Assembly: GCF_013911965.1 (NCBI RefSeq)
Contig: NZ_JACESE010000012.1
Location: forward strand, 1 to 64,000
DNA length: 64,000 nt
Direction: 5' to 3'
Origin: Phenylobacterium sp.
GTDB lineage: Bacteria > Pseudomonadota > Alphaproteobacteria > Caulobacterales > Caulobacteraceae
The notes beneath the pieces are model-generated. The model made no database searches. It was not told where the DNA came from and worked only from the letters and a program-made list of their open reading frames with translations. A program made the translations under genes and the position numbers. Below are positions 25,376-28,643 of the stretch, piece after piece. The first letter of the stretch is position 1; each line of letters opens with the position of its first letter.

Positions 25376-25657
25376 ATGGCCGAGCCTGTCGAACTGCGTA
25401 TCGAGTCCCACGCCGGAACGTGGCGCCTGCTTCGCGACGGCCGCGAGGTCCACAGCTTCGGCCATGTGGAGCGCGCCACCCATGAAGCCGTCCGCCTGGC
25501 GCACGAGCTGATCCACACGGGCGAGCCGGCGACGGTCGCCGTTCAGGCGGCCGACGGCCGGCTGATCGCGATCGACCTGACCGAGCCCGAGCGCAGCCGC
25601 GAGGCCGGCGGCGACGAGCAGGCGGCGATCACGCCCGACCGCGGCCCCAGCGGTTAG
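25376..25657 (+). CDS. Small DUF2188-like protein
   Basis: A 93-residue soluble protein. The pattern TWRLLRDGREVHSFGHVERATHEAVRLAHELI followed by VQAADGRLIAI is shared with short DUF2188-type proteins (Trp, a charged strand, an Ala-rich helix, then a DGR strand). No function is known. AAGGAGG sits 5 bases before the ATG. It is probably cotranscribed with the lipoprotein upstream. Its TAG overlaps the TAA of the convergent GNAT gene within TTAG. Confidence 0.65.
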   Translation: MAEPVELRIESHAGTWRLLRDGREVHSFGHVERATHEAVRLAHELIHTGEPATVAVQAADGRLIAIDLTEPERSREAGGDEQAAITPDRGPSG

Positions 25658-26196
25658 GCGGCGTCGCCGCGAGAAGGCGCAAGAAGCTTGAAATAGATCC
25701 GCGTGCCGCTCAGGCCGCCGTGCGGCTTGAGCGCGAACTGCGGGATTTCGCCGGCGAACTGGTAGCCGCAGCGCTCGTAGAGGCTCCCCGCTCCGCCGTC
25801 GCTGGCCGTGTCGAGGACGAGCAGGTGGCGATGGTGCTGGCGCGCCAGACGCTCGGCCTCGGCGAGCAGGGCCGTGGCCACGCCGCGGCCGCGGGCGCTG
25901 GGCCGCGTCATCATCTTGGCGATCTCGCCCCGGTGCGGCTGATTGGGCGGCGTGTCGAGCAGGAGGGTCACCGTGCCCAGCAGGGCGCCGCCGCCGTCCC
26001 AGGCGCCGAGGACGATCCGCTCGCCGCGGGCGGCTGAGGCCAGCGACCCCGCCCAGAAGGCCCGCGCAACCTCCGGCGCGAGCGGATGCATGAAGCTGAC
26101 CGAGCCGCCGTCGGCCACCACCTCGACAAGGATGTCGGCGAGCTGGTCGAGGGTGGCCGCCGCCTCGCCAAGCGGCCGGATCGTGAAAGTCGGCAT
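25654..26196 (-). CDS. GNAT-family N-acetyltransferase
   Basis: A 180-residue acetyl-CoA-dependent transferase. Motif A (MMTRPSARGRGVATALL, Q/RxxGxG/A type) binds the CoA pyrophosphate near residue 105, and motif B (GSLYERCGYQFAGEIP) follows near residue 145. The substrate is unknown; this subgroup commonly acetylates small amines or antibiotics. The ATG at 26196 lies 2 bases after the stop of the XRE-cupin gene, so the pair is translationally coupled, and it should share the palindromic operator at 26746-26785. Confidence 0.9.
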   Translation of the reverse strand: MPTFTIRPLGEAAATLDQLADILVEVVADGGSVSFMHPLAPEVARAFWAGSLASAARGERIVLGAWDGGGALLGTVTLLLDTPPNQPHRGEIAKMMTRPSARGRGVATALLAEAERLARQHHRHLLVLDTASDGGAGSLYERCGYQFAGEIPQFALKPHGGLSGTRIYFKLLAPSRGDAA

Positions 26197-26198
26197 GA

Positions 26199-26765
26199 TC
26201 AGCTCCGCGCCAGAGCCACGAGATAGATGCAGGGCGAGGTCGAGACGTTTTCGAAGACCACGTCGCTGGGCGGACCAAAGCCCAGGGCGTCGCCGGCTCT
26301 CAGCTCGCGTCGCGCCGCGCCTTCGGTGAGGCTCAGTTCCCCGGATATGACCCACAAGACCTGCCGAATCTGGGCGTAGGAGCTTGCCGGCATGCGGACC
26401 TCGCGGCCCGGCGGCAGCTCGACCCGGACCAGCTCCACCGGGTGGTCGGGACGGGTGAAGACCTGCTGACGCACATAGCCCGTGGCCGGGTCGCGCCAGA
26501 TGGGCTGGTCAGCGGCGCGCTGCAGGCCTCCGGCGTCGGACTCGGCCCGAACAAGCAGGCCCGCCAGGGTGAGGCCGAAGGCGCTGGCCAGCCGCACCAG
26601 GGTCACCGCCGTGGGGCTTATCTCCTGGCGCTCGATCTTGCTGATCGTGGCCTTGGCGACGCCGGCGCGATCGGCCGCCTCGGCCAGGGACCAGCCCCGC
26701 AACTCCCGTTCCAGCCGAATGCGGGCGGCCAGGCGCTCCCCCGCGTCGTCTATTATAGTGTCCAT
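26199..26765 (-). CDS. XRE-type regulator with C-terminal cupin sensor domain
   Basis: A 188-residue transcription factor. The N-terminal HTH (about residues 10-65, GWSLAEAADRAGVAKATISKIER) is a classic XRE fold. Residues about 105-185 form a cupin_2 barrel (VELPPGREVRMP, VLWVISGEL, GDALGF) that would bind a small effector. Such regulators often repress their own operon and an acetyltransferase. The first codons (MDTIIDD) are themselves the right arm of an 18-bp inverted repeat, and the promoter spacing implies a leaderless transcript. The GNAT gene follows 2 bases after its stop. Confidence 0.92.
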   Translation of the reverse strand: MDTIIDDAGERLAARIRLERELRGWSLAEAADRAGVAKATISKIERQEISPTAVTLVRLASAFGLTLAGLLVRAESDAGGLQRAADQPIWRDPATGYVRQQVFTRPDHPVELVRVELPPGREVRMPASSYAQIRQVLWVISGELSLTEGAARRELRAGDALGFGPPSDVVFENVSTSPCIYLVALARS

Positions 26766-26785
26766 GCGGACACTATAATAGACGA
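26746..26785. promoter_or_regulatory. 18-bp-arm perfect palindrome over the start codon of the XRE gene (probable operator)
   Basis: The left arm TCGTCTATTATAGTGTCC (26746-26763) and its exact complement (26768-26785) are separated by ATGC. The ATG of the XRE gene (26765-26763 on the minus strand) lies at the centre. The AT-rich arms stand out from the GC-rich surroundings. The site overlaps the -10 and the first codons, so a protein bound here would block transcription. The regulator encoded right there is the obvious candidate ligand. Confidence 0.85.
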
Positions 26786-26799
26786 TCGCCGGGCCGCAA
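26772..26799 (-). promoter_or_regulatory. Promoter of the XRE-GNAT operon, probably leaderless
   Basis: On the minus strand -35 TTGCGG (26799-26794), 16 bases, -10 TATAGT (26777-26772), then 6 bases and the ATG at 26765. Transcription would begin at or within a base of the start codon, and no Shine-Dalgarno sequence is present. The -10 lies inside the palindrome arm. Confidence 0.55.
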
Positions 26800-26816
26800 G
26801 GCTCCGCTTTTCGGCC

Positions 26817-28643
26817 TCAGCGGCCGGCGATGTAGGCGTCGACGCGCGCTTCGACCACGTCCAGCGGCAGGGCGCCCTCCTCCAGGATCACCTCGTGGAA
26901 GTCGCGAAGATCGAACCGCGGGCCCATCGCCGTCTTGGCCTTCTCCCGCAGCTCCAGGATCTTCAGCTGGCCGATCTTGTAGCTCGTCGCCTGGCCCGGA
27001 TTGGTGAAGTAGCGGTCGACCTCGCTCTGGATGTCGCGCTCGGAGTTCAGGGTGTTGGCCCGCATGTACGCGACCGCCTGGTCGCGGCTCCAGCGCTTGG
27101 CGTGGATGCCGGTGTCGAGCACCAGGCGCGCGGCGCGCCAGAGCTCCAGCGACAGGCGTCCGAAGTCCTCGTAGGGGTCCTGATAGAAGCCGGCCTCCTT
27201 GGCGAGCTTTTCGGCATAGAGGCCCCAGCCTTCCAGATAGGCGCCGTAGTAGCCGAACCGGCGGAACATCGGCAGCTCCTCCTGCTCCAGGCTGCGGGCG
27301 ATCTGGAAATGGTGGCCCGGCGCGCCCTCGTGATAGGCGATCGCCGCCAGCTGGGGCTTGAGCACCTGGCTCATGTCCGAGAGGTTCACGTAGAAGATCC
27401 CCGGCCGCGAGCCGTCCGGCGTGCCGGGATTGTAGAAGGCGACCGAGGCCGTCTTCTCGCGGAACGGCTCCACGGCGCGGACTTCCAGCGCCTGCTTGGG
27501 CAGGGTGGAGAACTGAGTGTCGGCCACGGCCATGTAGCCGGCGATCAGGGCCTTGGCGTCGGCCAGGTACTGCTGCTGGCCTTCCGGCGTCGAGGGGTAG
27601 TGGAACTTCGGGTCGGTCTTCACATAGGTGAAGAAGTCTTCCAGCGAGCCTTCGAAGCCGACCTTCTGCTTGATGGCCTCCATCTCCCCGCGCACGCGCG
27701 CCACCTCGGAGAGGCCGGTCTGATGGATCTGATCGGGCGTCAGGTCGGTGGTCGTGAAGAAGGCGACCATGTCGGCGTAGTAGGCGTCGCCGTCGGTCAG
27801 GGCCCAGACGCCGTTCACGTCCTTGGCCTTCGCCGACATCACCTCCAGGGCGGCCAGATAGCGTTCGAAGCCCCGCCGCCAGGGCCCCTGAAGGGCCGCG
27901 CGGCCGTCGTCCAGCAGCTTGGCCTTCACCTCCGGCGCCGCATCGAGGGCGGCCACCTTCTTCTGGAAGTCGGCCCAGACGGCGTTGTCCTCACCCGTCC
28001 CGAAGGGCGCGCCCGTGATCTTGTTCCTCGCATCCGGGATGACGCGCGCGAAGACGAAGGCCGGCGGCAGGAAGCCGTCCTTCGTGCGCGTCTCGATCTC
28101 GGCGGCGATCTCGCCCCCCACCCGCTCCACCGCCTGCAGGCGGGCGACATAGGCTTCGGCGTCCGCCACCGTGTCGACGCGGTGGTTGTTGATCAGCATC
28201 ACGGGAAGCTGGTCGAGTCCGCTGCCGTTGGAGGAGACGGCGTAGTTCTGCCAGTACCACTTGTCGGCGCGGCGCTGGTTCTCCACCGACTGCTCGAAGA
28301 GATCGTAGGAGAGCTTGGAGTCCTCGCTCAGCCGGCTGCGGTCGAACTGACGCTTCATCTGCGCCAGCTGACGCTCGGCGAGCGCCAGAGCCTCGTCCTG
28401 GCCGGCCTTGGTGTAGTCGCCAAGTTCGCCATAGCGCTCCTTCATGCCGAGCGCCGTCAGGGTCTCGGGGCTCAGGCGTGCGCTTTCCAGAAAGGCGTCC
28501 TGGAAGAAGGCGGCGAGCCGGGCGTCCTCGGAGGCCGCCGGCGCTGCGGCCGGCGGCGCGGCGGCCGGCGCGGTCTGCGCCATGGCCGGCGCAGCCACGA
28601 GGGCGAGGCCGAGCGCCAGGGTCGAGGTGAAGGTGCGAGTCAT
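26817..28643 (-). CDS. DUF885-family secreted metallopeptidase-like protein
   Basis: A 608-residue protein with a signal peptide (cut near AMA-Q, residue about 22) and an Ala/Pro linker. It matches the DUF885 family, thought to be zinc peptidases. The histidine-rich motif YHEGAPGHHFQIA, about residue 430, supplies the likely metal site (HExxxxHH). GYYGAYLEGWGLYAEKLA is the second conserved block. Members are common in Caulobacterales, often in several copies. The ATG at 28643 starts the signal peptide. It lies 51 bases upstream of the XRE gene on the same strand, but that gene has its own promoter. Confidence 0.88.
   Translation of the reverse strand: MTRTFTSTLALGLALVAAPAMAQTAPAAAPPAAAPAASEDARLAAFFQDAFLESARLSPETLTALGMKERYGELGDYTKAGQDEALALAERQLAQMKRQFDRSRLSEDSKLSYDLFEQSVENQRRADKWYWQNYAVSSNGSGLDQLPVMLINNHRVDTVADAEAYVARLQAVERVGGEIAAEIETRTKDGFLPPAFVFARVIPDARNKITGAPFGTGEDNAVWADFQKKVAALDAAPEVKAKLLDDGRAALQGPWRRGFERYLAALEVMSAKAKDVNGVWALTDGDAYYADMVAFFTTTDLTPDQIHQTGLSEVARVRGEMEAIKQKVGFEGSLEDFFTYVKTDPKFHYPSTPEGQQQYLADAKALIAGYMAVADTQFSTLPKQALEVRAVEPFREKTASVAFYNPGTPDGSRPGIFYVNLSDMSQVLKPQLAAIAYHEGAPGHHFQIARSLEQEELPMFRRFGYYGAYLEGWGLYAEKLAKEAGFYQDPYEDFGRLSLELWRAARLVLDTGIHAKRWSRDQAVAYMRANTLNSERDIQSEVDRYFTNPGQATSYKIGQLKILELREKAKTAMGPRFDLRDFHEVILEEGALPLDVVEARVDAYIAGR

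Follow-up and report, generated by a model that had tools for sequence, protein, structure and literature searches.

A candidate two-box operator that may extend from a predicted leaderless promoter into the first codons of an XRE-cupin regulator

XRE-cupin proteins of Pseudomonas aeruginosa have been reported to act as local repressors with sites at adjacent core promoters, and one of them, PA1884, is described as controlling the adjacent GNAT gene PA1885 (PMC7901475). For another such setting, DbuR of Pseudomonas putida is reported to protect 44 bp of DNA, including a 20-bp palindrome and the predicted -10 element (PMC12724383). Leaderless transcription has also been documented in Caulobacter crescentus, with 375 leaderless mRNAs reported (PMC4117421). 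The locus considered here lies on the minus strand of a 64-kb window, i.e., the whole stretch of DNA that was analysed, and consists of an XRE-cupin regulator of 188 aa (26199-26765) followed by a GNAT acetyltransferase of 180 aa (25654-26196), the presumed regulated target, which begins 2 nt past the regulator stop; this gap had been pointed out in a first-pass annotation of the DNA, and the ORF coordinates agree with it. The N-terminal XRE/HTH_3 domain of the regulator (residues 16-69, 26559-26720), presumed to be its DNA-binding part, was confirmed by domain search (PF01381, 53.5 bits vs. a cut-off of 23), as was the GNAT domain of the downstream protein. The Cupin_2 match at residues 114-183 (26217-26426), the presumed effector sensor, is marginal, scoring 24.9 bits vs. 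a cut-off of 27.2, with a rerun giving 27.1, or 27.4 (over the cut-off) with neighbours. A search of solved structures with the regulator returned 15 matches (best E 1.8e-5) to the HTH parts of SinR, HipB, DdrO and others including 1y9q, none of them informative on the operator. Two other identities were considered and dropped. The regulator scored 30.9 bits vs. 211 against the PuuR equivalog (NF007408), in the HTH part only, and a similarity to PuuR-type operators, for which the literature search gave no usable support, was likewise set aside. A defence-system reading was abandoned because all 13 PADLOC matches on the regulator fall in its HTH half and the GNAT has none.

Across the start codon of the regulator lies the longest perfect-arm inverted repeat of the window (loop up to 20), with 18-nt arms at 26746-26763 and 26768-26785 that are 100% complementary and separated by 4 nt. 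The first-pass annotation had described it as 18 of 18 matching positions around an ATGC spacer, centred on the ATG and with the codons for MDTIIDD as one arm, and the inverted-repeat listing and the coordinates reproduce this description exactly. Since the regulator ATG occupies 26765-26763 on the minus strand, the axis of the palindrome falls between base -1 and base +1. The 40 bp comprise two boxes, O1 at -20..-1 (TCGTCTATTATAGTGTCCGC, 26766-26785), which covers the -10 hexamer, and O2 at +1..+20 (ATGGACACTATAATAGACGA, 26746-26765), which corresponds to codons 1-7 (MDTIIDD) and is complementary to O1 at 18 of 20 positions. In 30 dinucleotide-preserving shuffles of the window, the longest perfect arms measured 10 to 14 bp vs. 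the real 18, and a chance origin was rejected on this ground. At up to one mismatch, the 13-base core of the arms matches just these two arms in its own genome, which argues against a mobile or multicopy repeat and is as expected of a local autoregulator. A terminator reading was likewise rejected, the sole terminator-like match being on the plus strand with its stem at 26732-26747 and the palindrome merely as its tail. No TTG box of a divergent plus-strand promoter was seen in a by-eye look.

Relatives of the regulator were collected at several taxonomic levels. Genomes with a match, the window's own included, numbered 32 of 299 in the family (E<=1e-20), 19 of 101 in the genus (1e-30), 12 of 385 in the class (1e-45) and 23 of 398 in the phylum (1e-45). 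Matches at 1e-40 were present in 127 of 146 genomes of the genus of G877, of which the best 30 places were used, and in 13 of 198 genomes of the family of G899; a genome-contig scan contributed 14 loci. The searches of the family, genus, class and phylum and of the family of G899 gave no relative closer than about 71-72% protein identity. Regulator relatives also occur on 135 plasmid records, all under 60% identity. Start regions were laid out for 72 distinct loci and then for 40 more, with a start assigned in 70 of the 72. Left out of the 72-locus set were L033, L034, L035 and L042 (on the same contigs as L004, L006, L012 and L013), the fragment L051, four weak paralogues or pattern matches of the own genome (L002, L003, L047, L048) and two identical cores, L036 (= L049) and L038 (= L056). 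Groups A (43 loci), B (34, mostly the genus of G877) and C (6) leave out loci below 47% identity, those with the start or boxes off the aligned register (L037, L040, L041, L049, L058, L062, L063, L075, L078) and L121 (identical to L039); L087, L100, L105, L111 and L116 fall in no group.

The promoter had been proposed earlier as TTGCGG-N16-TATAGT ending 6 bases before the ATG, and these positions hold: a -35-like TTGCGG at 26799-26794 is followed by 16 nt, a -10-like TATAGT at 26777-26772 (i.e., at -12..-7) and 6 nt to the ATG. A generic sigma-70 scan of 26600-26950 reported no promoter-like site and TTGCGG matches TTGACA at 3 of 6 positions, so that the promoter call rests on position and conservation. 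Groups A and B together comprise 77 loci, 69 of which have their best TATAAT-like hexamer at -12..-7 (with ties resolved in favour of -12) and 64 a CTTG, CTTT or CTTC starting between -37 and -35, the window having its own at -35. An SD-like core in -14..-4 was found in 2 of the 77. The -10 hexamer ending at -7 predicts initiation at the start codon itself, on the A of the ATG, and the fixed position of the hexamer together with the rarity of SD-like cores suggests that the regulator mRNA is leaderless. The window shows the arrangement typical of such starts, a -10 hexamer ending 6-7 nt before the start codon without an SD, and the leaderless start put forward in the first-pass annotation is accordingly the best reading of these sequences. 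A different organisation, with a leader, is suggested for two loci, L062 and L078, by a run of TCCATTATAGTAGAC some 36-50 nt before the aligned start.

Among the closer relatives, O1 (-20..-1) has the approximate sequence TCGTCTnnTATAATAGACGA and forms a dyad with its centre at -10.5, on the -10 hexamer, while O2 (+1..+20) reads about ATGGATACTATAGTAGACGA, codons 1-7 for MDTIVDD. Across the 33 loci with at least 57% identity, mean dyad symmetry peaks at the centre -10.5, with 0.63 of 10 pairs (next 0.43), and, the start codon aside, conservation is strongest at T-17, C-16, G+16 and A+17 (31 loci each), followed by A-11 (30) and C-3 (29). O2 is a partly complete copy in which the right part of O1 recurs after 20 bp, and because O1 is itself a dyad, the two boxes taken together are also imperfectly palindromic around the start codon. 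The left half of O2 usually reads GGAT or GGAC rather than GTCT, making O2 a half-operator in most loci, with a mean self-dyad of 3.8 of 10 in the 33 loci. The window departs from this pattern in O1, where the outer half TCGTCT is conserved in the family and the inner half is GTGTCCGC vs. the family consensus ATAGACGA, a replacement that leaves O1 alone a weak dyad (5 of 10 pairs); a search of its own genome that allowed up to one mismatch found no family-type site GTCYNNTATANNRGAC. Judged from sequence, a palindromic site of about 15-25 bp at the regulator's own core promoter, as is characteristic of XRE-cupin proteins, is present in the relatives as the O1 dyad, and in the window the palindrome spans 40 bp.

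This arrangement does not extend to all loci. By eye, the boxes of L037, L040, L041, L058, L062, L063, L075 and L078 are not in this register, and these left-out loci with other arrangements count against a universal two-box architecture. Five of the six group C loci (L067-L071) carry a ACTATAGT/ACTATATT core a few bases further upstream, and their O1 in this register shows no dyad (0-1 of 10). Five more distant loci of the genus g22 (L028, L029, L030, L031, L032) were seen by eye to have other AT-rich repeats, of the TTCTC..GAGAA type, near the start, and given these the operator type seems to change with lineage.

What is conserved among the homologous loci is the 20-bp dyad over the -10 hexamer with its partial copy in codons 1-7, and not the perfect start-centred symmetry. 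The first-pass annotation had held that relatives with the gene pair but without the repeat would speak against its reading, and such relatives were found as regards the perfection of the repeat: start-centred symmetry reaches 18 of 20 positions in this genome, and none of the 109 other loci exceeds 15 of 20. Thirty of those 109 have imperfect start-centred repeats matching at 12-15 positions, and halves resembling those of the window are found at L019 (14/20), L020 (12/20) and L039 (14/20). The exact palindrome is a local peculiarity of this genome, and the interest of the locus lies in what is conserved, the operator-like box in the coding sequence. The exactness itself may be neutral, a template-switch correction having equalised the arms without any function beyond that of the older boxes; this explanation, which is compatible with a two-box operator, comes fairly close to an even chance in our estimate without reaching it. 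It agrees with the occurrence of exact arms only in this genome and with the imperfect repeats in the 30 other loci, whereas the changed inner halves could alter the placement of dimers, and with the closest relatives found at about 71-72% protein identity the event is beyond reconstruction.

The constraint on the coding side was measured by a recoding test, in which codons 3-7 were scored against all of their synonymous spellings, weighted by codon usage, with a leave-one-out motif built from the upstream DNA only (-14..-1) of the other loci. The test set of 31 loci consisted of the 33 at >=57% identity minus L037, for which no start was aligned, and L049, whose boxes are displaced by one base. 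The native codons 3-7 scored at p<0.01 in 23 of the 31 loci, with a median p of 0.00055, and in 11 of the 31 no synonymous spelling outscores the native one. The loci are related and the counts are not independent, the control for kinship being other codon windows of the same genes: 28 other five-codon windows gave p<0.01 in 0-3 of 31 loci. The test on GNAT starts gave 0 of 20 at this level. When the register was shifted, the mean motif score was positive only at +7..+20. Codons 2-7 are also rich in ACT, ATA, GTA, TTA and CTA, five AT-rich codons that gene bodies hardly use: they make up 55 of 186 there vs. 30 of 5401 body codons and 1 of 120 of GNAT codons 2-7. In the window, no spelling beats ACT ATA ATA GAC GAC (p 1.1e-5, the last base being outside the motif). 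Eight of the 31 loci miss p<0.01, including L004, L008 and L010 at 68-71% identity. In the larger sets, 33 of the 43 group A loci pass with a start-symmetric motif and 30 with a direct motif, as compared with 10 and 5 of the 34 group B loci, so that the case for DNA-level constraint is strong in the former group and modest in the latter; to this extent, the codons are conserved as a DNA motif beyond the need of the protein, as an intragenic operator would demand. The earlier proposal that the coding sequence itself is the operator is thus borne out as far as an operator-like sequence under DNA-level constraint is concerned.

The same codons could in principle be explained by translation, with the upstream dyad O1 as the only operator and the AT-rich rare codons past the ATG serving leaderless translation through an unstructured 5' end rather than binding protein. 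Caulobacter leaderless mRNAs are reported to have their unstructured region shifted 3' of the start (PMC4117421), and folding of the predicted leaderless mRNA leaves its first 17 nt unpaired. It also fits that O2 is an incomplete dyad in most loci, and the GNAT control starts, which are not leaderless, provide no test of a translation-driven AT bias. However, the codons match the upstream motif in one exact register, and that motif would be untranscribed if the mRNA is leaderless. Moreover, among AT-matched spellings the native codons 3-7 still rank high, with a median p of 0.06 (about 0.5 expected) and values below 0.25 in 22 of 31 loci, and AT content alone is therefore an insufficient explanation. 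An operator confined to O1 is, on this evidence, unlikely. It is less probable still that the palindrome acts as RNA, with read-through from the DUF885 gene, which lies on the same strand and ends about 50 nt upstream of the regulator ATG, forming a hairpin of 18 bp with the start codon concealed at the 4-nt loop so that only leaderless transcripts are translated: the 50-nt stretch with both arms folds at -34.5 kcal/mol (z -9.8), but the 18-bp pairing is found only here (<=15/20 in the other 109 loci), and the boxes are conserved without it.

The pairing of the regulator with a GNAT gene, noted in the first-pass annotation, recurs in two of the three groups, a GNAT relative being found downstream in 35 of 43 group A loci (within 60 nt in 33 of the 43) and, at a distance of 328-390 nt, in 31 of the 34 of group B, but in none of the 6 group C loci. 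With the window GNAT alone as the query, a match was obtained in 31 of the 72 loci whose flanking DNA was examined, two of them remote, and no GNAT was found in the next 1.2 kb in 17 of the 83 grouped loci. Group A regulators pair with at least two kinds of GNAT. The downstream GNAT proteins (PF00583) of L005, L007, L017, L019, L022 and L055 are unlike the kind in the window, those of L005, L007 and L017 being of a REDDL..PQTQ type and that of L022 similar. A small ORF with a GGPPL motif lies between regulator and GNAT in 33 of 34 group B loci and in L065 and L114; it measures about 100-117 aa in the full-length readings of L097 and L065, and no Pfam match was found for that of L097. We give very little credence to the pair being a type II GNAT-Xre toxin-antitoxin module with the palindrome as its autoregulatory operator, for which the short intergenic gap and the existence of such modules, e.g., PacTA (PMC9561280), could be cited, since no antitoxin model reaches its cut-off (couple_hipB 28.6 vs. 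71.65, HipB 19.7 vs. 79), the C-terminal half of the regulator is cupin-like (at a marginal score), this regulator type occurs with different GNATs, with a small gene between in group B or with no GNAT within 1.2 kb, and for PA1884/PA1885, the nearest analogue that has been characterised, the published description is of a repressor with its target (PMC7901475).

Groups A and B differ in the recognition helix, which reads SKAMLS[TA]IE in group B vs. [SA]K..ISKIE and the like in group A, and also in both boxes. The outer half of O1 is TTTCGaTATA in group B vs. GTCT..TATA in group A, and O2 holds TATAGCGAA in group B vs. TATAgTaGAC in group A, as a result of which the residues TIVDD become DIAND. 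With the helix (ISKIE in A, LS[TA]IE in B), the upstream box changes and so do the encoded residues (TIVDD, DIAND). The left part of O1 in group B fits the right part of O2 of group B at 8.27 of 12 vs. 5.41 for that of group A, whereas the left part of O1 in group A fits O2 of either group almost equally (7.23 of 12 for A, 6.92 for B). When loci were permuted within groups, the value observed for same-locus pairing was reached in 4 of 2000 permutations for group A and 39 of 2000 for group B. The covariation between the groups is lopsided and is suggestive rather than conclusive. Only tentatively may the promoter box, the first seven codons and the recognition helix be regarded as one co-evolving unit, in which the N-terminal peptide would be dictated by the DNA-binding preference of the repressor that it begins.

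The reading that we regard as likely for the observed anatomy, with both boxes conserved, the codons constrained as DNA and the -10 hexamer fixed in position, is a two-box operator of an autorepressing XRE-cupin regulator/GNAT operon that runs into the regulator's own coding sequence on a leaderless mRNA. Transcription would start at the A of the ATG, with O1 (-20..-1) covering the -10 hexamer up to the transcription start and O2 (+1..+20) written in codons 1-7, the two centres being 20 bp, or about two helical turns, apart. Since a leaderless mRNA leaves no untranslated room, such an operator would have to run into the coding sequence. Dimers of the regulator would bind O1 and O2 together, side by side and presumably cooperatively, from about -20 to +20, and would thereby exclude RNA polymerase and keep both the regulator and the downstream GNAT off until an effector at the cupin domain lifts the repression. 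In this genome the two boxes are near-exact inverted copies of each other (18 of 18 in the arms), a state to which a single template-switch correction may have brought an imperfect ancestral repeat. The term self-repressing acetyltransferase module, used in the first-pass annotation, is a reasonable inference from the characterised XRE-cupin repressors (PMC7901475). Upstream-only surveys of XRE motifs would miss part of such operators, as might the one that took 200 bp upstream per reading frame (PMC12565409). If the two-box reading is true, promoter, repressor site, start codon and protein N-terminus all coincide in a single stretch of DNA in several alphaproteobacterial lineages. Synonymous changes in the regulator gene would then be predicted to alter its own regulation, and neither the protein's N-terminus nor the switch could evolve independently of the other.

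The C proteins of restriction-modification systems are of the XRE type and are not known to carry a cupin domain. They resemble the arrangement proposed here in being small HTH proteins with a leaderless mRNA, adjacent operators (OL/OR) and autorepression at high occupancy, and differ in that the C boxes are described as lying upstream of the C gene and that activation occurs at low occupancy (PMC4824078). Two alphaproteobacterial operons, acuR-acuI-dddL (TetR family, PMC3017554) and nreAXY (CsoR/RcnR family, PMC12724321), match the proposed arrangement in beginning with a repressor gene, being leaderless and having the operator on the promoter. The AcuR half-site GTCTATTA resembles GTCTATTATA at the window locus (PMC3017554), but these repressors belong to other protein families and their operators are reported upstream of the start codon (PMC3017554, PMC12724321). 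DbuR shares the XRE-cupin type and an AT-rich 20-bp palindrome over the predicted -10, and its 44-bp footprint is about the size of O1 and O2 together; this footprint, however, is described upstream of dbuA, divergent from the regulator gene, and not across the regulator's start codon (PMC12724383). The Pseudomonas XRE-cupin repressors (PA1884-PA1885, PsdR, PauR and ErfA) combine an HTH with a cupin domain, the architecture predicted for the window regulator; they are described as binding at core promoters, with palindromic sites for PsdR, PauR and ErfA, and as acting on a neighbouring target, a GNAT gene in the case of PA1884, which is the arrangement proposed here (PMC7901475). In contrast to that proposal, a second box in the regulator's own first codons or a leaderless start is not reported in the available parts of that account (PMC7901475), and the open-licence PMC literature searched, as far as its texts were accessible, gave no report of an XRE-cupin regulator with a second operator box within its initial codons. 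What would be new for this putative XRE-cupin autorepressor is an operator of which one part lies in a leaderless promoter and the other in the opening codons of the regulator gene itself.
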